A DNA stretch of 34,129 bases from the NCBI GenBank assembly GCA_029212785.1, contig JARGOG010000048.1, positions 1 through 34,129 on the forward strand, in the 5' to 3' direction. Below are positions 5,978 to 27,892 of the stretch, piece after piece; position 1 is the stretch's first letter, and every line of letters begins with the position of its first letter. Source of the stretch: Thalassobaculaceae bacterium. Its GTDB lineage: Bacteria; Pseudomonadota; Alphaproteobacteria; Thalassobaculales; Thalassobaculaceae. The notes under the pieces were generated by a model. It was not told where the DNA came from and ran no database searches. It saw only the letters and a list, made by a program, of their open reading frames with translations. The position numbers and the translations under genes were made by a program.

Positions 5978-6021
5978 GGCAATTTCGGACGATCGATCCT
6001 CGTGTACGCTCGCAATCCATG

Positions 6022-6092: not shown

Positions 6093-6587
6093 ATGAAGAA
6101 GCTGCTTCTGTTCGTGCTGCTGCCTCTGCTGCTGCTGATCGGCGCCGGTGCCGGCGCCTTTGTCGCCGGCCTGATTCCGGGCTTTGGCGGCGGGGCCGAG
6201 ACGGAGATGACGGAGGCGCAGAAGGCGGAGCTGGAGCGTAAGGAGAACATCGCCCCCTCGGCCGCGAAGGCGAGTCCGACCGGCGCCGTATTCCATACCC
6301 TCGACGAATTCGTCGTCAATCTGCAGTCGAACCGGGGCTATCCGGTCTTCCTCCTGCTCAGCATCACCATCGAACTGTCGGACCAGAGCGCGGTTCCGGT
6401 GATCACGACGCAGGAGCCGAGGATCCGCGACGGCATGATCGTCTACCTGTCCAGCCTCACGCCGCAGCAGTTGAACGGCTATGACGGGATCCAGGGGGTG
6501 CGCAACAGGACCTGGAAGCTATTGCGCGAACTGGTCGATCCGGATTTGATCCTGAACGTTCAGATCGCCAAGCTCACCGTCAAATAA
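6093..6587 (+). CDS. fliL: Flagellar basal body-associated protein FliL
   Basis: A 164-residue single-pass inner-membrane protein. FliL surrounds the stator units at the flagellar motor and supports torque and swimming or swarming. Residues 3-28 form one membrane helix rich in Leu and Ala, then come a Glu/Lys-rich linker (about 35-60) and the periplasmic FliL domain with FHTLDEFVVNLQ, YPVFLLLSITIEL, EPRIRDGMIVYLSSLT and a C-terminal LVDPDLILNVQIAKLTVK, typical of the family. Length is normal. The start ATG directly precedes the MKKLLL signal-anchor sequence. No fliM or other motor gene follows; instead an enolase-superfamily gene starts 19 bases downstream. I see no flagellar operon around it. 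Confidence 0.92.
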   Translation: MKKLLLFVLLPLLLLIGAGAGAFVAGLIPGFGGGAETEMTEAQKAELERKENIAPSAAKASPTGAVFHTLDEFVVNLQSNRGYPVFLLLSITIELSDQSAVPVITTQEPRIRDGMIVYLSSLTPQQLNGYDGIQGVRNRTWKLLRELVDPDLILNVQIAKLTVK

Positions 6588-6606
6588 CCCGTCCAGGGAG
6601 AATCCC

Positions 6607-7596: not shown

Positions 7597-7600
7597 TGCC

Positions 7601-8424
7601 ATGAGCGCCGTCGCCGAGCATTACGGCCGCAGCGGCCTGTTCGATCTTCTGCTGACCCGCCTCGCCGAATATGGGATCCACGATCCGGGCCGGGCCGACT
7701 TCTCCGTCATCGACCAGATGCACATGCGCGGGCAGACCGGCACCGAGGACGTGATCGCGGCGACCGGGATGGCGGCGGGCATGACGGTCGCCGATCTCGG
7801 CTCCGGCCTCGCCGGATCGGCCCGGATGTTCGCCGATGTGATCGGCGCACGGGTGACGGCGGTCGATCTGACGCCGAGCTTCTGCGCGACCGCCGAGGCG
7901 GTCAACGCCGCCGTCGGACTCGCCGACCGGATCCGGGTGGTGGAGGGAGATGCCACGGAGACCGGTCTTGCGGCGGGAGTCTTCGATGTCGTCACCACCC
8001 TGCATGCCTGTATGAACATTCCGGACAAGGAAGGCGTCTATCGCGAGGCGTTTCGGCTGTTGAAGCCGGGCGGGCGGTTCTGCTTCTACGATGTGGTTCT
8101 CGGCCCCGGCGGCGAGCCTCGCTATCCCACCCCCTGGGCCGAGCGCGCCGAGTTGAGCCATCTGATCCTGAACGGATGCGGGCGTTGTGCGAGGCGGTCG
8201 GGTTCCGGACGTTGGAGCTGCGCGACCTCACCGGCGACGCCAAGGCGGGCTCGACGGCGCGGCGCCAGGAGGCGCGGAAACGGGCCGAAACCGGAGAGGC
8301 CCCGCCGCTACAGGCCGGCGATATCCTGATGGGCGAGACCGCCGCTGAGAAGATGCGGAACATGGCGCATAACTTCGATGGCGACCATGTGGGCGTGGCG
8401 CTCGGGGCCTTTGAAAAGCCGTAA
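7601..8424 (+). pseudogene. Class I SAM-dependent methyltransferase, frameshifted
   Basis: The first frame (7601 to about 8173, 191 codons) encodes a class I methyltransferase with the SAM-binding motif VADLGSGLAGSAR (residues 63-75), an acidic residue ending the second strand (AVDL, Asp89), and VYREAFRLLKPGGRFCFYDV. The last third (MRALCEAVGFRTLELRDLT onward, 82 codons to the stop at 8422-8424) continues the same fold but in the frame one base earlier. The join lies at about 8171-8176. Compared with relatives, which have a short loop before the final helix-strand unit, one base (or about four) is missing. The result is a truncated chimeric protein unless the change is a sequencing error or the ribosome slips. 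It follows the epimerase gene by five bases, probably in one transcript. Substrate unknown. Confidence 0.75.
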
Positions 8425-8456
8425 AAAAAGAGCCGCGGTAGGGGGACCGCGGCTCT
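8423..8456 (-). terminator. Strong intrinsic terminator
   Basis: A perfect 11-base-pair stem (8429-8439 with 8446-8456) has a six-base loop. Read on the minus strand it is followed by a run of T (complement of the A tract 8423-8429), so it is a classic terminator for the epimerase transcript coming from the right. The left arm follows the plus-strand stop codon almost directly, so it may stop that transcript too, though without a U tract. The rest of 8457-8601 shows nothing recognisable. Confidence 0.8.
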
Positions 8457-8601
8457 GTCGACATGTCCGCAACGGGACGGAGGAAGCCCAGGGTGGACCT
8501 CAGTCGTTCGGCGAGTATAACGGCCGGTCGATATTCAAGTCAATACATACGCGTCATGCGTGTTGTTGGGCGGCTTCGACGCAGCCACGATCGCCGATTT
8601 C

Positions 8602-9585
8602 CTAGTCCACGGGATAAGGCCCGTCCTCGAATACCGTCTCGTGGTAGCCCTTGCTGCCGACGGTCCGGGCCAGATCGCTGCCGATCGCCTGACCGGCGGA
8701 GAGCTGCTCCAAAACCCGCGCGAAATCGAAGCGTGGCGCCCAGCCGAGGTCTCTCCTGGCTCGGGCATTGTCGTAGACCCGGTCGATCTCCTCGAACATC
8801 CGATAGCCGAGCCGTTGGTAGACGGCCTCGAAATCCGGAAACAGCCGGGCGACCGCCGCGGCGGGATCGGACCGCAGGGCCGGCAGGTCGCCCCGACTGA
8901 AAGGCGTGGTGGCACTGATGATGTACCGTGCGAAGCCGATCTCCGCAGCCCGGTCGATGGCGAGCAGATGGGCGGCGGCGGCGTCCTGCAGATCAACCCG
9001 GCGGAACAGGAACTCGTTGGCTTTCGCGTTGGCGTCGGCGAAGGCCGCCCGCCGCTCCCGGCTGTCATCCTCCTCGGGAAAGAAGCGGGAGGTGCGCAGG
9101 ATCAGGCAGGGCAGGCCATGGCGGCGATGGAACAACTCGCACAGGTCCTCGGCGGCGGTCTTGGTGACACCGTAGATGTTCTTCGGCGCGCCCCGCACGG
9201 TCTCGTCGATCCAGGCCGCCGGATCGCCCGACGCTGGGGTCAGGGCGGCGCCGAACGCGCTGGTCGTGCTGGTGAAGATGAAGCAGGAGACGCCGACGCG
9301 CGCGGCCTGCTCCAGCAGAGCCAGGGTGCCGGTGATATTGGTGTCGATGAAATCCTGCCGGCTGTGGGTCGCGACATGCGGTTTGTGCAGGGTGGCGGTG
9401 TGCAGCACGGCGTCGACCCCTGCCATGGCTTCGGCCACGACCGACACGTCCGCGATTGAACCGACGATCCCGGTATGCGGGCTCGCCTTGATATCGAGGC
9501 CGACAGGCTCGTGGGCACTGTCGGCGAGCATCCGCATGAGTCCCTCGCCAAGGTGCCCAGCACTTCCGGTGACCAGGATCCGCAT
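8602..9585 (-). CDS. NAD-dependent epimerase/dehydratase (extended SDR)
   Basis: A 327-residue extended short-chain dehydrogenase/reductase of the NAD-dependent epimerase/dehydratase type. These act on nucleotide sugars or other small molecules. The nucleotide-binding glycine motif TGSAGHLG opens the protein (residues 5-12), and the active-site pair Y-G-V-T-K follows, preceded by FTSTTSAFG for the catalytic Ser/Thr. The frame is open for 32 more codons upstream, but that stretch lacks the fold, so I place the start at the ATG encoding MRILVTG (9585). The C-terminal half contains DLQDAAAAHLLA, as in sugar epimerases. The substrate cannot be told. It lies 108 bases after the alpha/beta-hydrolase gene on the same strand. 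Confidence 0.82.
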   Translation of the reverse strand: MRILVTGSAGHLGEGLMRMLADSAHEPVGLDIKASPHTGIVGSIADVSVVAEAMAGVDAVLHTATLHKPHVATHSRQDFIDTNITGTLALLEQAARVGVSCFIFTSTTSAFGAALTPASGDPAAWIDETVRGAPKNIYGVTKTAAEDLCELFHRRHGLPCLILRTSRFFPEEDDSRERRAAFADANAKANEFLFRRVDLQDAAAAHLLAIDRAAEIGFARYIISATTPFSRGDLPALRSDPAAAVARLFPDFEAVYQRLGYRMFEEIDRVYDNARARRDLGWAPRFDFARVLEQLSAGQAIGSDLARTVGSKGYHETVFEDGPYPVD

Positions 9586-9693
9586 TGTCCATCCATAAGC
9601 GATGTCGACCATCTCATCGTCCCGGACCGTAATGTCGGGACGGCGCATTTCCAGGAATATCTTATGCGGGGCCGGGGCCATTCGGCGGCGCGG

Positions 9694-10500
9694 TCATCCC
9701 TGCAGATGCCGAGAGAAGAAGGACAAAAGCCGGGCGTTGTTGAGGTTTTCGGCATCCGGCTGCAGACCGTGGTTCTCTCCGTCATAGTAATGGACCTCCG
9801 GTGCGCGGCCCCCCGCCTTCAAGCGGGCTTCCAGGCGCCGGGTGCAGTCGACGGTCCAAACCTTGTCCTCGACACCATGGCTGATCAGGAGCGGGCCGTC
9901 GTACCGTTCGATCTCGATCGGCATGGCCGGCATCAATCCCGCGGTTGACCCGCGCCAGCTCCAGGACAGTTTGGCCGGATCCCAGGAGGCGCGCTTCGGA
10001 TCGGTCCAGGGGCGGGTCACGTTTGGCTCGAAGGCACCGCAGATCACGTCCGACGGCGCGTGGGCGGCAACCGCGTCGGGCAGTCCCGTCTCACCGTCAC
10101 GGGCCATCAGCGCGGTCAGAAGCAAGGCATGCTCGGCGCCGCGGGATACGCCGAACAGGCCGACCCGCCCGTTGGACAGACCGTCGGCCCGCGCCTCGGC
10201 GAGCGCGTCCTGGGTGCGATCCAGGGGGACATCGACGATATCCCCGGCATACCAGAAATTGCCGGAAACGGAGTAGGCGAATGGAATGGCGAGAAACCCG
10301 TTGGCAGCCAGCATCGCCGCGTTCCGGTGGCTCCACCCCGACCAGCCGCCCTCGGATCCATGCAACACCAGGACAGACGGAAACGGCCCGTCGCCGGGCG
10401 GGCTGTATCCCGTCCTGGACTTGCCCAACGAGCGACAGACGACCACGGGTGTCACCGGGTGCGAGCCGCCCGCCCGCGGGTCTCCGGTGCCGGCGCTCAA
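9694..10500 (-). CDS. Alpha/beta hydrolase (dienelactone-hydrolase or BAAT/thioesterase type)
   Basis: A 268-residue alpha/beta hydrolase. The nucleophile elbow is G-V-S-R-G, and the Asp of the catalytic triad probably lies in HGVEDKVW and the His in YDGENHG near the C-terminus. The oxyanion loop LVLHGSEGGW and the spacing suit the dienelactone-hydrolase/acyl-CoA-thioester-hydrolase C-terminal group. The substrate is unknown. The start is a TTG at 10500 that overlaps the stop of the upstream secreted-protein gene by four bases (TTGA), so translational coupling is likely. A downstream ATG would lose the N-terminal strand. There is no signal peptide, although the upstream partner is exported, so they may not act in one compartment. 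Confidence 0.78.
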   Translation of the reverse strand: MSAGTGDPRAGGSHPVTPVVVCRSLGKSRTGYSPPGDGPFPSVLVLHGSEGGWSGWSHRNAAMLAANGFLAIPFAYSVSGNFWYAGDIVDVPLDRTQDALAEARADGLSNGRVGLFGVSRGAEHALLLTALMARDGETGLPDAVAAHAPSDVICGAFEPNVTRPWTDPKRASWDPAKLSWSWRGSTAGLMPAMPIEIERYDGPLLISHGVEDKVWTVDCTRRLEARLKAGGRAPEVHYYDGENHGLQPDAENLNNARLLSFFSRHLQG

Positions 10501-11360
10501 TAGCCGACCTCGGCCTCCCAGAGGTCGTCGTTCACTTCCCGCATGGTGCGGTCATGGGCGCTTTCCAGGCAGCCGCGCAGAGTCAGCTTGAAGCCCATCT
10601 CGGCGTATTGGCCGCAGCGGTCGAGTTCGCTCTTCGCCCGGGCGATGCCGTCCGTCGACAGGCCCTGAAGACCGCCGGACGCGGACACATGGTCCCACAG
10701 TGCGGCGCGCTTGAACGGGTCGATGGCGCGCGGATCTACGCCACCCGACATGGCGGCCGGCAGGTGGTTGATCATCCGGGTCAGCGTCACCGCCGCGTCG
10801 GGGCGGGATTTGCCGGGGTGGAAGAAGTCGGCGGCGGTGAAGCGCGGCTCGCCGAAGGCCGTCTCGCGATCGCGCTCGGCGATCTCGGCCGGCACCGGGC
10901 CGGCCCCGATCGGAATCAGCGAGACCATCGGCGCGATCCGCACCGACACCTCCGTCGCATCGAGCGAGGCGAGACGGGACGCGTCCATCGTGATTCGGGT
11001 GCGGGTGAAATGCCCGTCGCTGACATAGGCCAGCAGCCCGGCGCCGGAGAATTCCCGCGTGCTGCCGTCGGCCTTGCGCGCGACCAGGGTGACATAACCG
11101 CTGCCGGCGGTGTCATAGGCCTGGCCGTCGGCCGGAGCCGGGCGGTCCTCCTGCAGGCAGAAGGAAGACACCAGCGCCTGGCAGACCACGCCGTCGCAGC
11201 TGAGCGGGATCGGCGTCGCATGGGCGACAAGCCCGAGCACCTGTGGCGGCAGGGAATGGGGGGGAGCCGTGTCGGCGGTGGCGGGCGCTGTCATGCAAAA
11301 CAGCGCGGCGATCCCCGTCAGGGTGACCACGGCGAGATTCATCGGGCGATGCATGCCCAT
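10497..11360 (-). CDS. Secreted protein of unknown function
   Basis: I do not recognise the family. The 287-residue protein begins with a signal peptide (Met1 or Met7 followed by NLAVVTLTGIAALFCM and a probable cleavage after APATA), so the mature protein should be periplasmic or secreted. The mature part contains at least four cysteines, a Gly/Thr-rich beta region (GSGYVTLVARKADGS) and a helical C-terminal third ending in GFKLTLRGCLESAHDRTMREVNDD. No catalytic motif is visible. A GGGAGG ribosome site lies close before the ATG at 11360. It is the first gene of a minus-strand group and diverges from the MttB-family gene across 217 bases in which I see no clear promoter. Confidence 0.65.
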   Translation of the reverse strand: MGMHRPMNLAVVTLTGIAALFCMTAPATADTAPPHSLPPQVLGLVAHATPIPLSCDGVVCQALVSSFCLQEDRPAPADGQAYDTAGSGYVTLVARKADGSTREFSGAGLLAYVSDGHFTRTRITMDASRLASLDATEVSVRIAPMVSLIPIGAGPVPAEIAERDRETAFGEPRFTAADFFHPGKSRPDAAVTLTRMINHLPAAMSGGVDPRAIDPFKRAALWDHVSASGGLQGLSTDGIARAKSELDRCGQYAEMGFKLTLRGCLESAHDRTMREVNDDLWEAEVGY

Positions 11361-11577
11361 GGGACCTCCCTTGGGCGGATCCGACTGGACGTCGTTCCGA
11401 CCCGTTTCTGTCGGTTGTGAAAAAGTGTCGCACTGCCCCCATGACCCGGCAAGTCACGAAACCCGGAGGTCTGGTGTCGCTCGTAGTCCATCTCCGACCG
11501 ATTCCTGTCGCGCGCGGCGCAGAACGAACGTGGCGGGCGCGCATGATCGGATCCTATCGCGGTGTTGGAGACGGACC

Positions 11578-13173
11578 ATGGGCGAAGATCTGGTCGAGAC
11601 TGGGGAGATGGATGTGGCAGGCGACGCCGGTGGGCGCCGCGAACGGCGGGGACGCACCGGCGGCGGTGGCCGCGATGCGCGCCGCGCGGCACGAGGCCGG
11701 CCGTCGACCCTCTACACCCCCTTCATCAGCCGCAACATCGGGACCTTCGACGTGCTGTCGCAGGAAGGGCTCGAGATCATCGAGACCAATGCCGAGACCA
11801 TCCTGGAGGAGATCGGCATCGAGTTCCGCGAGGATGCGGAATCCCTCGACATGTGGCGCGACGCCGGTGCCGATGTGGACGGCGAGCGGGTGCACATTCC
11901 CCGCGGCCTCGCGCGCGAACTGATCAAGACCGCGCCGGCCACCTTCACCCAACATGCCCGCAATCCCGAGCGGTCGGTTGAGATCGGTGGCGGCAACACC
12001 GTCTTCGCGCCGGTCTACGGCCCACCTTTCGTCAGCGACATCGACGGCGGACGGCGTTACGCGACGATCGAGGATTTCCAGAATTTCGTGAAGCTGGCCT
12101 ATGCACATCAGGGGATGCACCATTCCGGCGGCACCGTGTGCGAGCCGGTCGATCTGCCGGTGAACAAGCGGCATTTCGATATGGTCTATGCCCATATCAA
12201 GTATTCCGACAAACCCTTCATGGGCTCGGTCACCCATCCGCAGCGCGCGCTGGACACGCTGGAGATGGCGCGGATCGTCTTCGGCACGGAGTTCGTCGAG
12301 AACAACACGGTGCTGGTCTCGCTGATCAACGCCAACTCGCCGATGACCTGGGACGCCACCATGCTCGGCGCGCTGAAGAACTACGCGCGGGCCAACCAGG
12401 CGGTGATCACCACGCCCTTCATCCTGGCCGGCGCGATGTCGCCGGTCACGGTGGCCGGCACGCTTGCCCAGACCCTGGCCGAGGCGATGGCGGGTATGGC
12501 CTTCGCCCAGCTCTGTCGGCCCGGCGCGCCGGTGATCTTCGGCAGCTTCGCGTCGTCGATCTCCATGCAGTCGGGGGCGCCGACCTTCGGCACGCCGGAG
12601 CCGGCGCTGGTGCTGTACGGCTGCGCCCAGCTCGCCCGACGCCTCAATGTGCCGTTCCGCTCCGGCGGGTCGCTCTGCGGCTCTAAGGTACCGGACGCCC
12701 AGGCGGCGTTCGAGAGTGCCAACACCCTGCTGCCGACGGTGATGGGCGGGGTGAACTTCGTCCTGCACGCCGCCGGATGGCTGGAGGGCGGGCTGGTCAG
12801 CTCCTACGAGAAGTTCATGATGGACGCCGACCAGTGCGCGATGATGCGCACCATGCTGGAAGGCGTGGACCTCAGCGAGAACGGTCAGGCCATGGACGCG
12901 ATCCGCGAGGTCGGGCCGGGCGCGCATTTCCTTGGTTGCACCCACACCCAGGCGAATTTCGAAAAGGCGTTCTACCGCTCCTCGGTTGCCGACAACACGA
13001 CTTACGAGCAGTGGAGTTCCGAGGGCAGCAAGGACACCTATCAGCGTTCCGCCGCCTTGGTGAAGAAGACCCTCTCCGACTACGAGGCGCCGGCGCTCGA
13101 CCCGGCGGTGGACGAGGCGCTGATCGCCTATATGACGCAGAAGAAGGCGGCGTTCCCGGACAGCAACGTCTAG
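11578..13173 (+). CDS. MttB-family methyltransferase without pyrrolysine
   Basis: A 531-residue protein of the trimethylamine methyltransferase (MttB) superfamily, with the family blocks TLYTPFISRNIGTFDVLS, DVDGERVHIPRGL, GSVTHPQRALDTLEMA, LINANSPMTWD, FRSGGSLCGSKVPDAQAAFESA and FLGCTHTQANFEKAFYRS. The reading frame is continuous, with no in-frame amber codon, so it belongs to the non-pyrrolysine branch; characterised members of that branch demethylate quaternary amines such as glycine betaine onto a corrinoid protein. The Arg/Gly-rich N-terminus (RTGGGGRDARRAARG) is usual for alphaproteobacterial members. The frame is open 103 codons further upstream, but the ATG at 11578 with GGAG seven bases before it fits best. 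No corrinoid protein, reactivase or betaine gene is adjacent, so the substrate is unknown. Confidence 0.88.
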   Translation: MGEDLVETGEMDVAGDAGGRRERRGRTGGGGRDARRAARGRPSTLYTPFISRNIGTFDVLSQEGLEIIETNAETILEEIGIEFREDAESLDMWRDAGADVDGERVHIPRGLARELIKTAPATFTQHARNPERSVEIGGGNTVFAPVYGPPFVSDIDGGRRYATIEDFQNFVKLAYAHQGMHHSGGTVCEPVDLPVNKRHFDMVYAHIKYSDKPFMGSVTHPQRALDTLEMARIVFGTEFVENNTVLVSLINANSPMTWDATMLGALKNYARANQAVITTPFILAGAMSPVTVAGTLAQTLAEAMAGMAFAQLCRPGAPVIFGSFASSISMQSGAPTFGTPEPALVLYGCAQLARRLNVPFRSGGSLCGSKVPDAQAAFESANTLLPTVMGGVNFVLHAAGWLEGGLVSSYEKFMMDADQCAMMRTMLEGVDLSENGQAMDAIREVGPGAHFLGCTHTQANFEKAFYRSSVADNTTYEQWSSEGSKDTYQRSAALVKKTLSDYEAPALDPAVDEALIAYMTQKKAAFPDSNV

Positions 13174-13193
13174 CGGCCGTATCCCACCTCATT

Positions 13194-13284
13194 GTCACCC
13201 CGGGAGCGCGATCGCGCTGCTTGGGACCCAGTGGTCGCCGCGTCTGACTGGGGTCCGGCCTTCGCTTTGCTCAGTCGGGATGAC
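13194..13284. repeat. Intergenic inverted-repeat element
   Basis: The convergent gap between the MttB-family and DUF4870 genes holds nested dyads: GTCACCC/CGGGATGAC-like ends (13194-13200 and 13276-13284), a perfect 14-base palindrome AGCGCGATCGCGCT (13205-13218), and GGGACCCAGT/ACTGGGGTCC arms (13223-13232 and 13247-13256). This layout resembles the dispersed intergenic palindromes of alphaproteobacteria, with ends like CACCCCGG...CCGGGATGAC. It could also work as a bidirectional terminator. Copy number in the genome cannot be judged here. Confidence 0.6.
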
Positions 13285-13294
13285 GGGAGAGGGA

Positions 13295-13678
13295 TTAGAA
13301 CATATCCCCCGGCCGCAGGATCGGCTCGTCGTTGGAGAGCTTCAGCCATCCCTTGACGATGCGGTAGATCAGCCAGAGTTGAGCGAAGGCCAGAACCAGC
13401 CAGCCGAACAGCAGGATCACGCCGGCCCAGCCGATGACCGTCAGCAGCAGCCAGATCCAGAACGTGCGGATCTGCCAGCGGATATGGGTTTCCAGGTAAG
13501 TCCCCTCGACATCTCCGCGCTTCAGGTAGGCCAGGATTACGCCGAACATCGACGGGATCTGGAAGATCAGGCTCGCGCCATACAGGGCGTAGACGACATG
13601 GGTCGCCAGCCGATCGTTCTCCGGGGCGGAGAGCTTGAAGGGCAGCGGGCGTCGCTCAACGGCGCGGCTGTCGGACAT
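13295..13678 (-). CDS. DUF4870-like integral membrane protein
   Basis: A 127-residue membrane protein with hydrophobic segments at about residues 25-48, 68-90 and 92-110, and a conserved ETHIRWQIRTFWIW motif between them (about residues 62-75). That His-Arg-x-Gln helix start is typical of DUF4870/YtpI-like small membrane proteins in proteobacteria, whose role is unknown. The N-terminus is cytoplasmic-looking and the C-terminus short and polar. AGGAGA lies six to eight bases before the ATG. It diverges from the threonine aldolase gene, 89 bases away. That gap holds a weak CACACT/AGTGTG dyad and nothing else clear. Confidence 0.75.
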   Translation of the reverse strand: MSDSRAVERRPLPFKLSAPENDRLATHVVYALYGASLIFQIPSMFGVILAYLKRGDVEGTYLETHIRWQIRTFWIWLLLTVIGWAGVILLFGWLVLAFAQLWLIYRIVKGWLKLSNDEPILRPGDMF

Positions 13679-13767
13679 CCGGTCTTTCTCCTCACACTGT
13701 CACGGTCTTAAAGTGTGGACGCACCCCGTGTTTCGCAACATCCGCCGTCAACATCCGGAGCCGTTCC

Positions 13768-14832
13768 ATGGTCTCGTCGAACCCGACCGCCCAACCCCGC
13801 GTCAACCTGCACAGCGACACCGCCACCCGGCCCACACCGGGGATGCGCAAGGCGATCGCCGAGGCCGAGGTCGGTGACGAGCAGGCTGGCGAGGATCCGA
13901 CGGCGATCCGTCTGCAGGAGAAGGTTGCCGAACTGCTCGGCAAGGAGGCGGCCGTTTTCCTGCCCAGCGGCACCATGTGCAACGAGATCTCCTATCGGGT
14001 GTGGTGCGACCACGGGGACGAGATCATCCTCGAGGAAAACAGCCACGCCCTGCATTACGAGGTCGGCGGACCAGGGGCGCTGGCCGGCGTGATGACCCGC
14101 ACCATCAAGGGCACCAAGGGCTGGTTCACGTCCGACCAGGTCGAGGCGCTGATCCGGCCGAAATCCCGCCATATGCCGCGCCAGAAACTGGTGTCGGTCG
14201 AGAATACCGCGAACATGGCGGGTGGCACGATCTGGCCGCTCGATACCCTGAAGGGCGTCGCCGACACGGCGCGCGCCCATGGCATGCGCATGCATATGGA
14301 CGGTGCACGGCTACCCAACGCGGTGATCGCTTCCGGCATCTCCTTCGCCGATTTCGCCGGCACTTGCGACAGCGCCTGGATCGATCTCTCCAAGGGGCTC
14401 GGGTGTCCGATCGGTGGCGTGCTGGCGGGCGACAGGGATTTCATCGAGGAGTGCTGGCGCTTCAAGCACCAGTTTGGCGGGGCGTTGCGCCAGTCCGGCA
14501 TCGTCGCGGCGGCCGGGATCTACGCGCTGGATCACCATCTTGACCGGCTCGGCGACGACCACGCCCGCGCCCGGCGTCTGGCCGAGGGGATCGAGGACGT
14601 GGACGGCATTTCGGTCGACCCCAATTCGGTCGAGACCAACATGGTGTTCTTCGACGTTTCGGGCAGCGGCATCGGCGCACCGGAATTCTCGCGCCGGCTC
14701 ATGGCCGAGCACGAGGTGAAGATCAGCGCGGTGCAGCCGACCGTGCTGCGGGCGGTGACCTATCTCGGCATCGAGGATCCGGAGATCGAGCTGGCGGTCG
14801 CCGCCATCCGTGCGGTCGCGGCGGAGGCGTGA
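13768..14832 (+). CDS. ltaE: Low-specificity L-threonine aldolase
   Basis: A 354-residue fold-type I PLP enzyme that cleaves L-threonine or allo-threonine to glycine and acetaldehyde and may act on other beta-hydroxy amino acids. Typical blocks are NLHSDTATRPTPGMRKA at the start, AVFLPSGTMCNEI, HMDGARLPNA with the Asp that contacts the PLP ring nitrogen, and WIDLSKGLGCPIGGVLAG, where Lys209 forms the Schiff base. Length is normal. The ATG at 13768 begins a natural N-terminus (MVSSNPTAQPRVNLHSDTAT). The gene stands alone on the plus strand, flanked on both sides by inverted-repeat intergenic elements. Chirality at the beta carbon cannot be told. Confidence 0.9.
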   Translation: MVSSNPTAQPRVNLHSDTATRPTPGMRKAIAEAEVGDEQAGEDPTAIRLQEKVAELLGKEAAVFLPSGTMCNEISYRVWCDHGDEIILEENSHALHYEVGGPGALAGVMTRTIKGTKGWFTSDQVEALIRPKSRHMPRQKLVSVENTANMAGGTIWPLDTLKGVADTARAHGMRMHMDGARLPNAVIASGISFADFAGTCDSAWIDLSKGLGCPIGGVLAGDRDFIEECWRFKHQFGGALRQSGIVAAAGIYALDHHLDRLGDDHARARRLAEGIEDVDGISVDPNSVETNMVFFDVSGSGIGAPEFSRRLMAEHEVKISAVQPTVLRAVTYLGIEDPEIELAVAAIRAVAAEA

Positions 14833-16171: not shown

Positions 16172-18502
16172 CTACTCCGCTGCTGCCGCCGGCCGGGCCG
16201 CCTGGATCGCCGCCCAGATGCGATCGGGCGTGGCCGGCATGTCGATGTCGGTCACCCCGACCGGGGCCAGGGCGTCGAGGACCGCGTTGATCACCGCCGG
16301 CGGGGCGCCGATGGCCCCGGCCTCGCCGCAGCCCTTCACCCCGAGCGGGTTGGTGGTGCAGCGTGTCGGGCTCATCGAGAAATTCACCGGCGGGACGTCG
16401 TCGGCCCGGGGCAGGCAATAATCCATCAGCGAGCCGGTCACAAGCTGCCCGCTCTCGTCGTAGACCGTGTGTTCCAGCAGCGCCTGGCCCACACCCTGGG
16501 CCACGCCACCATGGACCTGGCCCTCGAGCAGAACCGGGTTCACCACTTCGCCGAAATCATCGACCACGGTGAACTGGATCAGCTCGACGATGCCGGTATC
16601 GGGGTCGATTTCGACCTCGCAGACATGGGTTCCGTTCGGATAGGTCGAGGCGGCGGGCTTGTACATCTCCTTCGCCTCAAGGCCCGGATCGATACCGTCC
16701 GGCAGCTTCGAGGGATCGCTGGCGGCAGTGGCCAGCGCGCCGAGCGTGATCGACCGGTCGGTGCCGACCACGGTGAACTTGCCGTCGGCCAGTTCCAGGT
16801 CGGAATCGGCCGCCTCCAGCAGATAGCTGGCCAGCATCCGCGCCTTCGCCGACACGCTCTGGATCGCCATGTGCAGGGCCGAGCCGCCGGCCGGCAGGGA
16901 ACGCGAACCGTCGGTGCCGGAGCCGTTTTCGATGGCGGCGGTGTCGCCCTGGACCACCTTGACTTTGTCGTTGTCGACGCCGAAGGCCTCGGCGACCAAC
17001 TGGGTGTACGCGGTCTCGTGGCCCTGGCCGGTGGAGCGGGTGCCGATCGGCACGGTGATGGTGCCGTCCGGCTCGATCCGGATATCGGACCATTCCGGCC
17101 CACCGCCGCCGCAGGCCTCGACATAGGTCGAGATGCCGATGCCGCGCAACTTACCGTGCTTGGCGCTTTCCGCCCGGCGGGTCTCGATTCCGGCCCAGTC
17201 GGCCTTGGCCAGAGCCTTGTCGAGATGGGCGGTGAAATCGCCGCTGTCATAAGTCTCGCCCAGTGCCGTGGTGAACGGCATGGAGGAGGCAGGGATGAAG
17301 TTCCGCCGACGGATCTCGTCGCGCGGCAGGCCGGCGACCTTGGCGGCGACATCGACCAGACGTTCCACCAGATAGGCCGCCTCGGGCCGTCCGGCGCCGC
17401 GATAGGCGTCGACCGGAAGAGTGTTGGTGAAGTAGTTGCGTACCCGGACATGGATCGCCGGCGTGGTGTAGAGCCCGGCCAGCATGCCGGAGCCGGCCAC
17501 GGTCGGAATCGCCGGGCCGTAGAGCGAGAGATAGGCGCCGAGATCGGCCTTGGTATCCACCGACAGCGCGAGGAAGCGGCCGGTCTCGTCCATCGCCACC
17601 TTGGCGTGGGAGACGTGGTCGCGGCCCTGGGTGTCGGAGACGAACGACTCGCCCCGCTCGGCGATCCACTTGACCGGCCGGCCGAGTTTCTGCGCCGCCC
17701 ACAGGACCAGTGCGTGTTCGCGGTACGGGAAGATCTTCATGCCGAAGCCGCCGCCCACATCCGGCGAGACGCAGCGGAACTTGGCCGGGTCGATGTTCAG
17801 CACCTTGGCGATGACGTCGCGCACCCCGTGCGGGCCCTGTGTCGAAACGTAGAGCGTCACCGTGCCGCCCGCCGGATCGGCCACGCCGACGGCGCCGCGC
17901 GGCTCGATCGAATTCACGATGATGCGGTTGTTGACCAGGCTGAGCTCGGCCACTGTCGCGGCCCGGGCGAAGCCGTCCTTTACCGCGGCGGCGTCGCCGG
18001 TTTCCCAGTCGAGGCAGAGATTGCCCGGAGCGGCGTCCCAGACGACCGCTCCGCTGTCGATGGCGGCGAGCCCCGGGACGGCGGGCCGCTCCGCATAGTC
18101 GATTTCGATCAGCTCCGCGGCGTCGCGCGCCTGATCCATGGTCTCGGCGACGATCAGGGCCACCGCATCGCCCACATGGCGCACCCGGTCGGTCACCAAC
18201 AGCGGATAGTCGGGGCCGACCGCTTTCTTGCCGTCCGTCCCTTTGAGCAGGGCACCGCAGGGCAGCGGCTTGAGGCCGTCGGCGGTGACGTCGGCGCCGG
18301 TCAGCACCGCCTTCACGCCGGGTGCCCGCGTCGCCGCGGAGACGTCGAGGGCGGTGATGTCGCCATGGGCGATCGGCGATCGCAGGACGACGGCCTTCAG
18401 CGCGTCATCGAAAGGCAGGTCATCGGTATATTGTCCGGTGCCGGTGAGGAACCGTTGGTCCTCGAGACGCTTCATTCCCTGTCCGATGCCGAACTTCGCC
18501 AT
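16172..18502 (-). CDS. Orphan CoxL-like molybdopterin subunit, form II
   Basis: A 776-residue molybdenum-binding large subunit of the xanthine oxidase/CO dehydrogenase family, with the order GIGQGMKRLEDQRFLTGTGQYTDD at the N-terminus, SPDVGGGFGMKIFPYRE, the active-site loop AYRGAGR (residues 366-372), GTRSTGQGHETAYTQ, and GVKGCGEAGAIGAP with the catalytic Glu727. Form I CO dehydrogenases carry AYxCSFR in that loop. AYRGAGR marks form II, whose real substrates are mostly unknown. The upstream frame extends 33 codons, but MAKFGIG at 18502 is the normal N-terminus. Neither the 2Fe-2S small subunit nor the FAD medium subunit is adjacent: cysQ follows after five bases and a divergent SRAP gene lies upstream. 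A partner encoded elsewhere would be needed for electron transfer. Confidence 0.92.
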   Translation of the reverse strand: MAKFGIGQGMKRLEDQRFLTGTGQYTDDLPFDDALKAVVLRSPIAHGDITALDVSAATRAPGVKAVLTGADVTADGLKPLPCGALLKGTDGKKAVGPDYPLLVTDRVRHVGDAVALIVAETMDQARDAAELIEIDYAERPAVPGLAAIDSGAVVWDAAPGNLCLDWETGDAAAVKDGFARAATVAELSLVNNRIIVNSIEPRGAVGVADPAGGTVTLYVSTQGPHGVRDVIAKVLNIDPAKFRCVSPDVGGGFGMKIFPYREHALVLWAAQKLGRPVKWIAERGESFVSDTQGRDHVSHAKVAMDETGRFLALSVDTKADLGAYLSLYGPAIPTVAGSGMLAGLYTTPAIHVRVRNYFTNTLPVDAYRGAGRPEAAYLVERLVDVAAKVAGLPRDEIRRRNFIPASSMPFTTALGETYDSGDFTAHLDKALAKADWAGIETRRAESAKHGKLRGIGISTYVEACGGGGPEWSDIRIEPDGTITVPIGTRSTGQGHETAYTQLVAEAFGVDNDKVKVVQGDTAAIENGSGTDGSRSLPAGGSALHMAIQSVSAKARMLASYLLEAADSDLELADGKFTVVGTDRSITLGALATAASDPSKLPDGIDPGLEAKEMYKPAASTYPNGTHVCEVEIDPDTGIVELIQFTVVDDFGEVVNPVLLEGQVHGGVAQGVGQALLEHTVYDESGQLVTGSLMDYCLPRADDVPPVNFSMSPTRCTTNPLGVKGCGEAGAIGAPPAVINAVLDALAPVGVTDIDMPATPDRIWAAIQAARPAAAAE

Positions 18503-18516
18503 TGCCTGCCTCGCTC

Positions 18517-18531
18517 GTTCGCGGTTGGTTT
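18517..18531 (+). promoter_or_regulatory. Near-match LexA (SOS) box
   Basis: GTTC-N7-GTTT fits seven of eight positions of the alphaproteobacterial LexA box GTTC-N7-GTTC. It lies 70 bases before the SRAP start and 15 bases before the CoxL-like start in the 98-base divergent region. A single mismatch box can occur by chance. Confidence 0.3.
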
Positions 18532-18544
18532 GAAGGATCGTAGT

Positions 18545-18556
18545 CCCGGTACCGGG
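18545..18556. promoter_or_regulatory. 12-base perfect palindrome, candidate operator
   Basis: CCCGGTACCGGG is a perfect 12-base palindrome in the middle of the divergent CoxL-like/SRAP intergenic region, where a shared operator would be expected. No cognate regulator is visible nearby. Confidence 0.3.
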
Positions 18557-18600
18557 TGTCGCCAAGCGACGTGACGGCTCGCGTGGAGGAGCCTGCAGCA

Positions 18601-19326
18601 ATGTGCGGACGTTACAGCATCACCACCGCCCCGGAGGCCATGCGCCAGTTGTTCGATGTCGACACGGCGTTGAATCTGGAACCGCGCTGGAACATGGCTC
18701 CGACTCAGGCCGCACCCGTCATCAAGCTGATGCAGGAGGGCCCTGCCAAGGGGCATCCGGTCGTCGCCATGATGCGCTGGGGTCTGGTGCCGGGCTGGGC
18801 CAAGGACATCGATATCGGCGTGAAGATGATCAACGCTCGGGCCGAGACGGTGAACGAGAAGCCGGCCTTTCGGGGCGCCTACCGCTACCGGCGCTGCGTC
18901 ATCCCGGCCGACGGCTTCTACGAATGGCGCACCGAGGACGGCGTCAAGCAGCCCTATCGGGTGGTGCGCAGGGACCGCGCGCCGTTCGCCTTCGCCGGGC
19001 TGTGGGAGCTTTGGGAGGGTACGGGCGAGGGCAGCGCGCTGGAGACCTTCACCATCGTCACCACCGAGGCGAACGCGGCGATCGCCCATATCCACCATCG
19101 CATGCCGGTGATGCTGTTCGCGCAGGACGCCTTCGCCACGTGGATGCGAGCGGATCCGAAGGATGCGGGCCAGTTGATGCTGCCTTGCGACCCGGGGTTG
19201 GTCGAGGCGTATCCGGTGGACCGTCGTGTCGGCAACGTGCGCAACGACGATGCTGGCCTGGTCGATCCGGTCGAGGTTCCAGCGGCCAAGGCCCCGCCGA
19301 AACCGCAGCAGGGATCGCTGTTCTAG
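18601..19326 (+). CDS. SRAP-domain protein (YedK/HMCES family)
   Basis: A 241-residue SOS-response-associated peptidase (SRAP) protein. The family forms a protective thiazolidine crosslink between Cys2 and an abasic site in single-stranded DNA. The catalytic set is present: Cys2 directly after the initiator Met (MCGRYSI), Asn78 (INARAE), Glu108 (GFYEWR) and His166 (HHRMPV). Because Cys2 must become the N-terminus, the start has to be the ATG at 18601, though an in-frame ATG lies 45 bases earlier. Length is slightly above YedK. A GGAGGAG stretch precedes the ATG. A near-match LexA box lies 70 bases upstream, which would suit a DNA-damage gene. It converges with the M24 gene across 20 bases without a terminator. 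Confidence 0.93.
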   Translation: MCGRYSITTAPEAMRQLFDVDTALNLEPRWNMAPTQAAPVIKLMQEGPAKGHPVVAMMRWGLVPGWAKDIDIGVKMINARAETVNEKPAFRGAYRYRRCVIPADGFYEWRTEDGVKQPYRVVRRDRAPFAFAGLWELWEGTGEGSALETFTIVTTEANAAIAHIHHRMPVMLFAQDAFATWMRADPKDAGQLMLPCDPGLVEAYPVDRRVGNVRNDDAGLVDPVEVPAAKAPPKPQQGSLF

Positions 19327-19346: not shown

Positions 19347-20603
19347 CTAGCCGAGCAGCGCTTCCTCGAACGGAAATTCGCTCAGCAGTTCGATCCCGGT
19401 TTCGGTGACCAGCACCTGCTGCTCCAGCTTCACCCCCTCGCCGCCGTCGTTGTGGCCGATGAAGCTCTCCACACAGAGCGTCATGCCCGGCTCGATCACC
19501 CCGTCGTAGCCGGCATCGGGAAAGTCGGCGCGGTGGTAGAGATACGGATATTCCCCCGACATGCCGCAGCCATGCGCCGAGAGGTAGTAGCGGTGGTCGG
19601 CATATTGCTCGGGGATGTCCCAGGCCTGTTCGGAATACTCCCGGAACGTCATGCCCGGTTTGATCACGGCCATGTTGTGCTGCACCTGCTCGTGGGCGGT
19701 TCGGTACAGCATGCGCTGATGCGCGCTCGGGCGGTTCGGGCCGGCGTGGAAGGTGCGGGAGAAGTCGCTGTAGTAGCCGTGGCAGCCGACCACGTCGGTG
19801 TCGAGCGCGATCAGTTCGTCGGCCGCGATCACCTTCGACGAGGTCTCCTGGAACCACGGATTGGTGCGCGGGCCGGAATTCAGCAGCCGGGTCTCGCAGT
19901 AATCGGCATTGGCGGCGATCACCGAGCGGTGCAGCACCGACCACAGTTCCGCCTCGGTCAGACCGGGGCGGATGGCGGCGCGCAGCTCGGCGACCCCGGC
20001 CTCCGTCGCACGCAGCGACGCCCGCACGCATTTCATCTCCTCGTCCGACTTGATGCAGCGGGCCATCTCGACCGGTTCCTGGGCGTCGACCAGCCGGATC
20101 CCCTCCGCGGCGAGGGCGATGGCGGCCCCGGCATTCAGCCGCTCGACCCCGATGACCGGATCCATGCCGCACATCTCGCGCAAGGTGGATGCCATTTCCC
20201 GCGCCCAGAGCCGTTCGCGCTCGGCGACCGCGGGGCCGGCGGCGACGAAGCTGGCGGTGGCGCTCGGTCGGACCTCGTCGACGGTCTCGTACCCCGATCC
20301 CAAATGCAGGGCGCCGGTGAACTCGTACAGAACGGACCGGTCCGCGGTCAGCAGCAGATACCGCGAGGGTTGGTTTCTGCTGGTGAAGATCTGCATGTTC
20401 CGCGTGCCGGTGGCGTAGCGGATATTGATGGAGTCGCTGAGGATCACCGCGGCGATGCCACGCGTCGCCATTTCGGCGCGCACCCTGTCCCGGCGGTAGA
20501 GCCGCACGGCGGCGAGGTCTATGCCGGCACTCTCCGGCGCGCGATCGAGCAGGGCGAGGTCAGGGTGGGTGCCGCGGTCGGCGTGCCAGTCGAGTTTGGC
20601 CAT
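19347..20603 (-). CDS. M24-family protein, DddP-like
   Basis: A 418-residue metallopeptidase-fold protein of family M24. It most resembles DddP, the M24-fold DMSP lyase that splits dimethylsulfoniopropionate to DMS and acrylate: NIRYATGTRNMQ, ETRLLNSGPRTNPWFQE and PGMTLCVESFIG are DddP-style blocks. The five metal ligands and His fall at Asp268, Asp270, Asp280, His344, Glu379 and Glu394, which is collinear (offset 27) with the DddP numbers 295, 297, 307, 371, 406 and 421 as I recall them. Tyr339 also corresponds to Tyr366. However the residue matching the proposed catalytic base Asp377 is Gly350 (HGCGMSGEYP), and the N-terminus is about 27 residues shorter. Either a variant lyase or a different substrate is possible; a creatinase or Xaa-Pro peptidase is less likely. 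AGGAAG lies eight bases before the ATG. Confidence 0.8.
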   Translation of the reverse strand: MAKLDWHADRGTHPDLALLDRAPESAGIDLAAVRLYRRDRVRAEMATRGIAAVILSDSINIRYATGTRNMQIFTSRNQPSRYLLLTADRSVLYEFTGALHLGSGYETVDEVRPSATASFVAAGPAVAERERLWAREMASTLREMCGMDPVIGVERLNAGAAIALAAEGIRLVDAQEPVEMARCIKSDEEMKCVRASLRATEAGVAELRAAIRPGLTEAELWSVLHRSVIAANADYCETRLLNSGPRTNPWFQETSSKVIAADELIALDTDVVGCHGYYSDFSRTFHAGPNRPSAHQRMLYRTAHEQVQHNMAVIKPGMTFREYSEQAWDIPEQYADHRYYLSAHGCGMSGEYPYLYHRADFPDAGYDGVIEPGMTLCVESFIGHNDGGEGVKLEQQVLVTETGIELLSEFPFEEALLG

Positions 20604-20637: not shown

Positions 20638-21720
20638 CTAGCCGTGGCAGCGGGTGAACACCTCGGAGGTGCGCTGGGTGAAGCCGATGGGAGTGGTGTC
20701 GCCGATCATCTGGATGTCGTCGGCGCCGAGCTTCTGAAAATGCTCCACCAGCGTGTCCGAGCGCCGGATGTACCACGTGTACTCGTCCTCCAGCGTCTCG
20801 ATCACCGGCACGTCGATCGACGGATCGCGCCCCTGCGCCTTGACGCTAAAGCTATCGGCGGTGAACTCGATGAACTCGTCGCTGCAATTGCCCGAGGACC
20901 AGCGGCCTTGAAGGGCGCCGGCGACGTGTGGATGGCTTTCGGTCTCGCCCGAGGTCTGCGGCATGACGGCATGCGCGACCATCGGCGCCCCATGATCACC
21001 GCCCAACGCCGAGTCCTTCCACTCCCGCAGCATCTCGATGTAGTGCGGAGCCGGATCGACCTTGAAGGCAACCATCAGGGCCGCTGCGGCGCCGAAGATC
21101 AGCACCAGGGCGATGACGACGGTACCGACCATGAAGAACACCCGCCCGCGGCGCCGGGGCTCCGGGCGGAAATCCGGCGGTGGCCCAACCGGTTCATCGC
21201 TCGGATGGACCCCGCGGGCGAAGCCGAGGGAGCGCAGATCCTCGCTCGTCGCATCCTCATCCTCGACGCCGCGCCGGAGGCTCGGTTCTTCGTTTGCCGT
21301 CAGGTGGTCTTCCAGATCGGTGTGATCGTCATGCACAGTCGGCGCGCCGTCGCGGTCCGCTTCCTGGCGGGCGGCATGAATGGCGTCGGCGAAGGATCCA
21401 TCGGCGGCTGGCGCGTCGAGCGAATCCGGCGCCTCGCGTTCGGCACCACTCCACACTCCGCCCTCGGCCTCGTCATCGCCCGACGGCTCGCTGAGCGACA
21501 GGTCGATCGAGCCCCGGTCGACGAAGAAAATCTGGCTGAATTCCCATTCGCCGATGGTCGCGTTCCAGTCGCCACCGACGACGCGCAGTTCGGCGATCTC
21601 CTCGGCATCGAACTCCCGGACCATGGAGGAGACGAGCACCGACGCGCTTTGGGCACGCTCCAGCGTCTCCCAACCGGTGGCGTCACGCTTCTGCAGAAAA
21701 TACACGTCAAATCGGCGCAT
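20638..21720 (-). CDS. Single-pass membrane protein with acidic linker, unknown
   Basis: A 360-residue protein I cannot name. Residues 1-75 form a compact domain (MRRFDVYFLQKRD, EEIAELRVVGGDWN, QIFFVDRG). Residues 76-190 are acidic and probably disordered. A membrane helix spans about 194-218, preceded by RRRGR as a stop-transfer/positive-inside mark, and residues 225-360 form an outside domain with GRWSSGNCSDEFIEF and TRCHG (two cysteines that could pair). The predicted topology is N-inside, C-outside. The gene begins 12 bases after the GGDEF-EAL gene and ends 34 bases before the M24 gene, all on one strand, which suggests a shared transcript. The cytoplasmic N-domain could answer the c-di-GMP enzyme, but this is inference. 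Confidence 0.65.
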   Translation of the reverse strand: MRRFDVYFLQKRDATGWETLERAQSASVLVSSMVREFDAEEIAELRVVGGDWNATIGEWEFSQIFFVDRGSIDLSLSEPSGDDEAEGGVWSGAEREAPDSLDAPAADGSFADAIHAARQEADRDGAPTVHDDHTDLEDHLTANEEPSLRRGVEDEDATSEDLRSLGFARGVHPSDEPVGPPPDFRPEPRRRGRVFFMVGTVVIALVLIFGAAAALMVAFKVDPAPHYIEMLREWKDSALGGDHGAPMVAHAVMPQTSGETESHPHVAGALQGRWSSGNCSDEFIEFTADSFSVKAQGRDPSIDVPVIETLEDEYTWYIRRSDTLVEHFQKLGADDIQMIGDTTPIGFTQRTSEVFTRCHG

Positions 21721-25808: not shown

Positions 25809-27089
25809 ATGACCGACGCGCCGCACCGTCTTGGTGCCCTGGATGCCCTTCGCGCCATCGAGGGGGGGAGCCTGACACCGGAAGCGCTGATGCAATCCTG
25901 TCTGGAGCGGGTTGCCGAGCGCGAGGCCGAGGTCGGCGCTTTCATCCATCTGGATGCGGAGCAGGCGCGGGACGCCGCCCGGGCGGCGACGACCTCCGGG
26001 GCGCTTGGTGGCCTGCCCGTGGCGGTCAAGGACATCATCGACACCGCCGACATGCCGACCGGTTACGGCTCGTCGATCTATATCGGCAACCAGCCGGAGA
26101 AGGACGCGGCCGTCGTCGCCCGTACCCGGTCCGCCGGTGGCGTGGTCATGGGCAAGACGGTGTCGACCGAGTTCGCCTGGCGCAATCCGGGCAAGACCCG
26201 CAATCCACGCGGGCTTGAGCACACGCCCGGCGGATCCTCCAGCGGTTCGGCGGCGGCCGTCGCCGACTTCATGGCGCCGCTTGCCTTCGGGACGCAGACG
26301 GCGGGGTCGGTCATCCGGCCGGCGGCCTATTGCGGCGTGGTCGGTTTCAAGCCGACCTTCGGCACCCATGACCGGCGCGGCGTGAAGGAACTGTCGCGCT
26401 ATCTCGACACCGTCGGGTGCTTTGCCCGGTCGGTCGCCGACATCGCCCATTTCGACTACGCGTTGCGCGGCGAGCCGGCGCCGCGTCTCGACGGGTTCGA
26501 CGGTGCCGCTCCGCGTCTCGCCTTCCATGTCCCGTTCGCCGATCGGATCGAGGAGGATGCGGGCGAGGCCCTGGAGAAGGTGCGCATCGCCGTGCAGACC
26601 GCCGGTGCCTCGGTGGTCGGCCTCGTCGACTGGACCGCCTTCGAGAAGATGGACGACGTCCACATGAAACTGATGACGGCCGAGGCGGCGCGCGCGCTGG
26701 CGTGGGAGTATGACAACCACCCCGACAAGCTGAGCGCGTTCTACCGCGAGACCATCGCTGCCGGCCGGGAGATCGACGACACCGCCCTGTATCAGTTGCA
26801 GGCCGATGCCGACAGTTTCCGCAACGATGCCGCAGCGCGACTGGACGGAATTGATGCGATCCTGACCGTGCCGGCCTCCGGTGAGGCGCCGCAAGGCTTG
26901 GATTTCACCGGCGATCCGCTGTTCAACAAGATCTGGACCCTGCTGCGCTGGCCCTGCGTCACAATTCCGGCCGGCACCGGCGACCAGGGGATGCCGCTCG
27001 GCGTGCAGATCGTCACCGGCTATGGCGAGGACGCCAAGGCACTTGCCGTCGCCGACTGGATCGAACGGGCGCTCTTGGCGGATCATTGA
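25809..27089 (+). CDS. Amidase (amidase-signature family)
   Basis: A 426-residue amidase-signature enzyme that hydrolyses C-N amide bonds. The Ser-cisSer-Lys catalytic triad is at Lys74 (AVKDIID), Ser143 (GGSSSGSAAAVA) and Ser167 (GTQTAGSVIRPA), with spacing of 69 and 24 residues as in malonamidase. The protein is shorter than GatA (about 490) and has no GatB/C neighbours, so it is a free amidase, not the transamidosome subunit. The substrate is unknown. Downstream lie a creatininase-family hydrolase and upstream YjbQ, a set suggestive of small cyclic or linear amide breakdown. The ATG follows the YjbQ stop by five bases. Confidence 0.9.
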   Translation: MTDAPHRLGALDALRAIEGGSLTPEALMQSCLERVAEREAEVGAFIHLDAEQARDAARAATTSGALGGLPVAVKDIIDTADMPTGYGSSIYIGNQPEKDAAVVARTRSAGGVVMGKTVSTEFAWRNPGKTRNPRGLEHTPGGSSSGSAAAVADFMAPLAFGTQTAGSVIRPAAYCGVVGFKPTFGTHDRRGVKELSRYLDTVGCFARSVADIAHFDYALRGEPAPRLDGFDGAAPRLAFHVPFADRIEEDAGEALEKVRIAVQTAGASVVGLVDWTAFEKMDDVHMKLMTAEAARALAWEYDNHPDKLSAFYRETIAAGREIDDTALYQLQADADSFRNDAAARLDGIDAILTVPASGEAPQGLDFTGDPLFNKIWTLLRWPCVTIPAGTGDQGMPLGVQIVTGYGEDAKALAVADWIERALLADH

Positions 27090-27145
27090 GCGTGCATGCT
27101 CTTGGCCGACACGCGAGAGCTACGGAACACTGAGGAGGAATGGGA

Positions 27146-27892
27146 ATGCGACTGCAATTGATGACCTGGATGGAAGTGGAAGCCTATCTGAACGGCAACA
27201 GGGGCATCATCATTCCCATTGGCTCGACAGAACAGCATGGTCCCAACGGCCTGATCGGCACCGACGCGATCTGCCCGGAGGTGATCGCAGACCGGGCGGC
27301 AGAAACGCTTGGATGCATCGTCGGCCCAACCATCTCGATTGGCATGGCGCAGCACCACCTGGCGTTCCCGGGGTCGATCGCGCTCCGCCCGTCGACGCTG
27401 ATGGCGGTAATCCGCGACAGCGTCCTGTCTCTGGCCCGCAACGGCTTCGAGCGGTTCTATTTCCTGAACGGTCATGGCGGCAACATCGCCACGGTGTCCG
27501 CCGCCTTCAGCGAAATCTATGCGGAGAAGAGCCTCGCCGTCGGCCCCAACCAGCCGCATGTCCGCTGTAAACTGGCGAACTGGTTCGCGTTCCCGGCCGT
27601 CAAAGAGATCAGCAAGGAGCTCTATGGCGACCGGGAGGGCAGCCACGCGACACCGTCGGAGATCTCGGTCACCCAGTACGCGTTCCGGGAGCACATCAAG
27701 AAGGTGGCGATGGACCCGGCGCCGCCGCGTCCGCGGCCGTTCTACGACGCCGAGGATTACCGACTGATCCATTCGGACGGCCGGATCGCTGCGGACAGCT
27801 TCCTTGCCACGCCGGAGGCCGGCGCCAGATTGATCGAAGCGAGTGCCGCGGGGGTCGTCGACGATTACCAGGCGTTCATCGACGAAGCGTAG
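27146..27892 (+). CDS. Creatininase-family amidohydrolase
   Basis: A 248-residue protein of the creatininase/creatinine amidohydrolase superfamily, which holds two metal ions and opens cyclic or simple amides (creatinine, formamides and related). Conserved ligands: Glu29 and His31 in STEQHG, Asp40 in IGTDA, His110 in NGHGGN, and Glu172 in HATPSEIS. An ATG two codons earlier sits directly on the AGGAGG ribosome site, so the ATG at 27146, seven bases after it, is the better start. Members of the family are also used in mycofactocin and FAD/riboflavin pathways, none of which is present here. It lies 56 bases after the amidase and 30 before cytochrome b561. Substrate not known. Confidence 0.87.
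   Translation: MRLQLMTWMEVEAYLNGNRGIIIPIGSTEQHGPNGLIGTDAICPEVIADRAAETLGCIVGPTISIGMAQHHLAFPGSIALRPSTLMAVIRDSVLSLARNGFERFYFLNGHGGNIATVSAAFSEIYAEKSLAVGPNQPHVRCKLANWFAFPAVKEISKELYGDREGSHATPSEISVTQYAFREHIKKVAMDPAPPRPRPFYDAEDYRLIHSDGRIAADSFLATPEAGARLIEASAAGVVDDYQAFIDEA

Follow-up and report, generated by a model that had tools for sequence, protein, structure and literature searches.

What does a protein do that resembles the DMSP lyase DddP in fold and metal site and lacks the residue favoured as the catalytic base of that enzyme? The question is raised by a gene for an M24 protein in a 34,129-nucleotide stretch of DNA from a Thalassobaculaceae bacterium (assembly GCA_029212785.1, contig JARGOG010000048.1; hereinafter, the window). 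Such a protein could be wrongly counted as a producer of DMS, a climate gas. It is probably not a DMSP lyase; the reading that we prefer, with a probability of about 0.5, is that it is a metal-dependent enzyme of the Gly type, within a large subfamily of DddP-like M24B proteins, with a putative role in quaternary-ammonium (betaine-type) catabolism.

Sequence and predicted structure of the M24 protein

The open reading frame starts with ATG (Table 1) and is not truncated, as indicated by the N-terminal LDWH motif that is common to near orthologues (Asp5, Trp6 and Arg10 are invariant in 7 of 7). The closest solved relatives of the protein are DddP structures, at 33-34% identity: in a phmmer search of the PDB, RdDddP (4b28, E = 2.5e-69) and three RlDddP sequences come first, and prolidases follow from E = 5e-17. 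The metal ligands of DddP are Asp295, Asp297, Asp307, His371, Glu406 and Glu421 (DddP numbering as in the relevant passages of PMC4108388). In the alignment with RdDddP (4b28) and RlDddP (4rzy), they are matched by Asp268, Asp270, Asp280, His344, Glu379 and Glu394, and Tyr339 aligns with Tyr366 of DddP; the ligands and the Tyr366 equivalent are aligned in all 32 rows of one alignment. The same passages of PMC4108388 favour Asp377 as the catalytic base, with Tyr366 as the alternate, and a figure there has both residues invariant throughout the DddP lyases, the Fusarium enzyme included. In the window protein, the position of Asp377 is occupied by Gly350; the register at this position is fixed by the structure 4s01 (‘mutant D377N’), which has Asn there.

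Thus, the match of the ligands and of Tyr339 to DddP and the replacement of the proposed base by Gly350, both given in a preliminary description of the locus, are borne out. That description also had the protein 27 residues shorter than DddP at the N-terminus. It is indeed shorter, but by approximately 22 residues; relative to RlDddP, the numbering is shifted by 22 residues at position 30 and by 27 at the C-terminus. The difference arises from two insertions in DddP, between approximately residues 206 and 217, that leave a 5-residue internal gap in the window protein.

The AlphaFold model of the protein (pLDDT 94, pTM 0.91) is closest to DddP by both structural comparisons: four DddP entries are the best Foldseek matches (TM 0.90, with prolidases next at about 0.7), and the VIA Z score is 48. 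As in DddP, the loop after the His ligand is one residue shorter than in prolidase. The NCBIfam model of DddP (NF043017) gives 307 bits, below its equivalog cut-off of 600. The next M24 match in the same genome has an E-value of 2e-12, and a DmdA-type search of this genome yielded 389 bits (cut-off 410).

Table 1. Features of the window, with positions counted from its first nucleotide
Feature	Position	Strand	Basis or remark
DddP-like M24 protein, 418 aa, Gly350 at the position of DddP Asp377	19347..20603	-	alignments, profile scores, fold match
Codons 343-351 of the M24 gene (A-H-G-C-G-M-S-G-E): metal ligand His344 and Gly350	19551..19577	-	ORF-coordinate count, alignment
Hypothetical protein, 360 aa, no Pfam match, 34 bp upstream of the M24 gene	20638..21720	-	possibly co-transcribed
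MTTB-family (PF06253) gene, about 6 kb from the M24 gene	11269..13173	+	family match
SRAP-domain gene, 20 bp from the M24 gene and convergent with it	18556..19326	+	domain match
Beta-eliminating lyase family gene	13768..14832	+	downstream of the MTTB-family gene, same strand
Molybdopterin-binding large subunit, xanthine dehydrogenase-type oxidase	16172..18601		
Adjoining amidase and creatininase-family genes	25809..27892	+	

Distribution and phylogeny of the Gly type

A relative with an E-value of 1e-40 or better is present in 53 of 289 genomes of the class. A scan of named genomes yielded 209 relatives; the best 80 of these, at 69-90% identity, include proteins of Thalassobaculum litoreum (90%), Nisaea, Roseibium, Roseovarius, Maritimibacter and Oricola as well as Mesorhizobium, Sinorhizobium, Marinobacterium, Zobellella, Cobetia and MAGs labelled Acidimicrobiales, so that the hosts of the window clade span alphaproteobacteria, gammaproteobacteria and the latter MAGs. 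Most of the named hosts are marine; Sinorhizobium and Mesorhizobium are soil or nodule genera. The presence of Gly350 is not a chance occurrence, being found in all 84 distinct copies of the window clade (87 of 87 alignment rows, in which three genomes are counted twice). The six metal ligands and the equivalent of Tyr366 are kept in all 87 rows.

In the family as a whole, position 377 is usually Asp. Among 82 family rows, there are 65 with Asp, 13 with Gly, three with Asn and one with Val; a reduced set, which was used for one outgroup-rooted tree and for residue counts and from which 12 of the 82 rows were dropped as near-duplicates (one Asn and the Val row included), has 53 Asp and two Asn among 55 non-Gly rows. 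Gly is also found in the tree neighbours of the window clade, namely L015 and four HGETP-type proteins, and elsewhere in the tree in L014. Another residue, Tyr278, accompanies Gly350: Tyr is found here in all 87 window-clade rows and in all four HGETP rows, Phe in L014 and L015, and Cys in 42 of the 55 Asp or Asn rows. Both the window clade and the HGETP rows have an invariant His357. Four proteins (L020, L024, L048 and L058) form a second subclade of the Gly type, in which the loop reads HGVG(M/L)HGE(T/K)P and a His adjoins the Gly; one copy of this subclade is encoded next to a gene for a family-5 solute-binding protein (L191).

A careful tree was built from 59 rows, after 25 more of 84 had been taken out, namely near-duplicates, both outgroups and some distinct rows. 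It has a Gly clade of 18 rows (bootstrap/SH-aLRT 100/99) and a window clade of 13 rows (100/97), and the four rows of DddP (100/100) are nested among Asp-type rows. A tree constrained to unite the window clade with DddP is worse by 150 log-likelihood units and is rejected (p-AU 1.4e-43). The window clade is therefore not the sister of DddP, contrary to what had been proposed on first inspection, although the tree does place it outside the clade of characterised DddP. The results support a coherent clade that is related to DddP, unlike prolidases and uniformly devoid of Asp377. Plain membership in DddP, which was considered as well, was rejected on the profile score, the separate clade and the missing Asp377. 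Asp377 may have been lost in the Gly types or may never have been present, as the outgroup rooting differs between two quick trees with long outgroup branches: the Gly types are outside a 72-row clade in one and nested in the other.

Gene neighbourhoods of the Gly-type and Asp-type proteins

The window's own neighbours say little about the function of the M24 protein: no MTTB, DMGDH-like, BCCT or OpuAC gene is found within 700 bp on the same strand. Upstream are the gene for the hypothetical protein, which clusters with a gene of one other locus among 86, in Thalassobaculum litoreum (L095), and a GGDEF-EAL gene. The MTTB-family gene of the window was considered as a partner. In a quick tree of 26 MTTB rows, however, its product belongs to a 5-row group apart from the MTTBs that adjoin window-type M24 genes, although the group includes one MTTB adjoining an Asp-type M24 (L179); the linkage is thus circumstantial and the partner reading is weakened.

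In the loci of the relatives, neighbours were called by blastp against representatives from the same loci (E 1e-15, within 700 bp), with families named by Pfam and NCBIfam searches of the representatives and extended by blastp. On the same strand and within this distance, MTTB is encoded in seven of the 84 distinct window-clade loci (L101, L102, L106, L117, L125, L145 and L154; in L116, it is one gene further off), a DMGDH-like protein in six, BCCT in four and OpuAC in three. At least one of these families is represented in 15 of the 84 loci, from 14 genera or equivalents; the other 69, the window among them, have no such same-strand neighbours. In L101, L102 and L163, the M24 gene has a same-strand neighbour that encodes a family-5 solute-binding protein, and a divergent LysR gene is present in 33 of the 84 loci (22 genera). 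Among 78 other DddP-like copies, which mostly have Asp (five Asn, one Val, one without a readable motif) and include DddP-type genes, MTTB is adjacent in six, DMGDH in three and any of the four families in eight, with BCCT and OpuAC in none. None of the four was found within 700 bp on the same strand of the six other Gly-type copies, two of which adjoin a family-5 solute-binding protein gene.

For comparison with chance, copies were counted genome by genome in 41 genomes (195 Mb), giving 133 for MTTB, 124 for BCCT, 393 for GCV_T and 122 for OpuAC. At one gene per kb, the expected numbers of adjacent cases at 41 loci are 0.06, 0.06, 0.17 and 0.05, respectively (approximately double for all 84 loci), versus seven, three, six (GCV_T/DMGDH-like) and three observed. 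The genomes were chosen by the author from among 80 named loci, usually with one for each genus, and are enriched for neighbours because all 14 named neighbour-bearing loci are among them; furthermore, related lineages (Oricola/Ahrensia; Rhizobiales; Tropicimonas/Aliiruegeria) are not independent, so that the counts overstate the number of events and the excess is an order-of-magnitude argument. BCCT genes are numerous (11, 22 and 21) in the three named genomes that have one next to the M24 gene. BCCT and OpuAC also carry DMSP, and therefore only MTTB and DMGDH, which act on N-methyl compounds, point to nitrogen.

The gene order MTTB-M24-DMGDH is found with the Gly type in L106, L117, L125, L145 and L154 and with the Asp type in L183 and L242. 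Both types occur in putative quaternary-amine loci, which is a new observation. Two loci hold both types, with the window-clade M24 located between MTTB and DMGDH (L239 and L240, which are wider views of L154 and L117 rather than new loci). In L239 (positions 6013-13788, Nitratireductor alexandrii), MTTB, the Gly-type M24 and the DMGDH-like gene are accompanied by an Asp-type M24 that is 47% identical to RlDddP. More generally, seven of nine loci encoding intermediate DddP-like proteins (406-517 bits with the DddP model) contain MTTB and DMGDH within a 20-kb stretch (L235-L240 and L242); of the remaining two, L243 has an adjoining BCCT and L244 has neither. The proteins in L235-L239, of which L235 is from Roseibium hamelinense, are near-DddP ones, 47-49% identical to DddP. 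A class-III aminotransferase family gene lies within about 4 kb of MTTB in the MTTB-M24-DMGDH clusters of L145, L239 and L240.

In the quick MTTB tree, a clade of 18 rows comprises nine of the 13 adjacent MTTBs, namely those of five of the seven Gly-type and four of the six Asp-type partners; outside this clade are the MTTBs of L101, L102, L179, L206 and the window. A gene over the DddP cut-off coexists with the window type in 14 of the 41 genomes, so that the latter does not simply replace DddP. Eleven of these 14 genes were examined, and none has MTTB or DMGDH adjacent. Among genes over the cut-off, that of L241 has MTTB about 4 kb away and that of L245, a Marinobacterium gene, has ProV, ProW and OpuAC close by, in line with transport of DMSP by OpuAC.

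Possible function and alternatives

Because some relatives adjoin genes for the use of glycine-betaine-like compounds, a role of the window protein in a betaine pathway appears probable. The suggestion of the preliminary description that it may cleave another compound than DMSP is favoured by these neighbourhoods and by the coexistence with genes over the DddP cut-off. A candidate substrate that would fit the loci is a betaine that enters the cell through BCCT or OpuAC and loses some of its methyl groups to MTTB and DMGDH. The metals might bind the carboxylate or carbonyl of the substrate, in the manner suggested for DddP, while its methylated ammonium end would occupy the tunnel. Cleavage of the C-N bond without Asp377 could then employ a metal-bound hydroxide, in a hydrolysis of the kind that creatinase and ectoine hydrolase perform. 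Otherwise, it might rely on a different conserved base, such as Tyr339, Tyr278 or His357. The occurrence of Gly and Asp forms in the same place of the gene order suggests that Asp377 is dispensable for that step or that the two forms perform different steps; the loci that hold both would suggest the latter. Tentatively, the whole DddP-like subfamily might be an unrecognised class of betaine C-N-cleaving enzymes that act beside MTTB and DMGDH, with DddP as a derived twig that adopted the sulfur analogue and the window clade as a branch without the Asp base.

The alternative that survives best is a DMSP (or DMSOP) lyase with a different base, for example, Tyr339 or Tyr278; we consider it unlikely. 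DddP is the nearest solved structure by both sequence and fold, the ligands and the Tyr366 equivalent are kept throughout the window clade, the adjoining BCCT and OpuAC could import DMSP, and the named hosts are mostly marine. Against this reading are the score of 307 bits versus the cut-off of 600, the fact that 14 of 41 genomes already encode a protein that exceeds this cut-off, the MTTB and DMGDH neighbours that concern N-methyl compounds, and the orthologues in soil or nodule genera. Low identity by itself excludes no DMSP lyase because, according to the parts of PMC4108388 that concern it, an active fungal DddP is only 32% identical to RdDddP; in the figure of that paper cited above, however, the fungal enzyme shares the invariant Tyr366 and Asp377.

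Ectoine hydrolase DoeA/EutD and creatinase are M24-fold enzymes that act on small osmolyte or N-methyl compounds, and a similar role, as a hydrolase of compounds resembling ectoine or creatine, is an improbable alternative. The predicted fold is similar (Z of 34.6 for DoeA and 33.6 for creatinase), EutB-like and EutC-like genes are encoded upstream of MTTB-M24-DMGDH in Oricola indica (L106, positions 3305-5327, scores over or near the cut-offs), and a creatininase-family gene is located 6.5 kb from the M24 gene of the window. The DoeA models NF038259 and TIGR02993, however, give 54 of 575 and 36 of 613 bits, far below their cut-offs, the sequence groups the protein with the DddP-like ones, and the EutB/EutC pair was noted at one locus, without a systematic search elsewhere.

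An Xaa-Pro peptidase or prolidase is very improbable. M24B prolidases and aminopeptidase P (3q6d, 5cdl, 1a16) share the fold and most of the metal ligands and come next after DddP, the highest Z score being the 35.0 of an Xaa-Pro dipeptidase, and in three loci a peptide-type solute-binding protein of family 5 is encoded next to the M24 gene. In the alignment with prolidase 3q6d, however, the second His of HGIGLEIHE, which is also the residue aligned with DddP Asp377, corresponds to Gly350, and the His of SALPHG corresponds to Phe251; we take these two to be the catalytic peptidase His residues outside the ligand set. Position 251 is Phe in 83 and Tyr in four of the 87 window-clade rows, and neither position is His in any row. 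In addition, Asp270 (DddP Asp297) aligns with Gly in 3q6d, and the betaine-type transporters (four BCCT, three OpuAC) outnumber the three family-5 genes. On the preferred reading, the protein is not a peptidase, and the prolidase assignment was rejected on both missing His residues and on the E-values. Least probable of all is a degenerate, non-catalytic DddP homologue with a binding or regulatory function, which the missing base might suggest but which is at odds with metal ligands that are invariant in 87 of 87 rows from alphaproteobacteria, gammaproteobacteria and MAGs labelled Acidimicrobiales.

The window type is similar to DddP (RdDddP 4b28; RlDddP 4rzy, 4s00 and 4s01; NF043017) in fold, ligands and the Tyr366 equivalent and differs in Gly350, the identity of 33-34%, the shorter N-terminal part, the internal gap, the clade and the gene neighbours. 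With the uncharacterised Asp-type DddP-like proteins, it has the M24B subfamily and overlapping partner genes in common, whereas those proteins mostly have Asp (65 of 69, with three Asn and one Val). Searches of the titles and abstract openings in one open-access library yielded no paper that links M24 or DddP-like proteins with MTTB loci. The MtgBCDE system for glycine betaine demethylation in marine bacteria (PMC12478193) likewise combines an MTTB-superfamily enzyme with further demethylation genes nearby, but the words ‘peptidase’ and ‘DddP’ have no occurrences in the main text of that article. In the ocean samples analysed in PMC10686828, dddP accounts for about 65% of the total ddd genes, according to the passage on these counts. 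With an Asp-less DddP-like clade and near-DddP proteins encoded near MTTB and DMGDH, loose homology counts could mix the sulfur and nitrogen cycles, and if the betaine-class reading is true, many metagenomic ‘dddP’ calls would be betaine genes; position 377 combined with an MTTB neighbour offers a simple filter for such calls. A betaine role would also mean one more enzyme for the degradation of abundant osmolytes and provide a natural experiment on lyase evolution. A separate observation concerns L045 (G086:C7, positions 8425-14600), where four DddP-like M24 genes, one of them Asn-type at position 377, adjoin MTTB; they are arranged as two pairs with a LysR gene in between, and the genome contains further copies.
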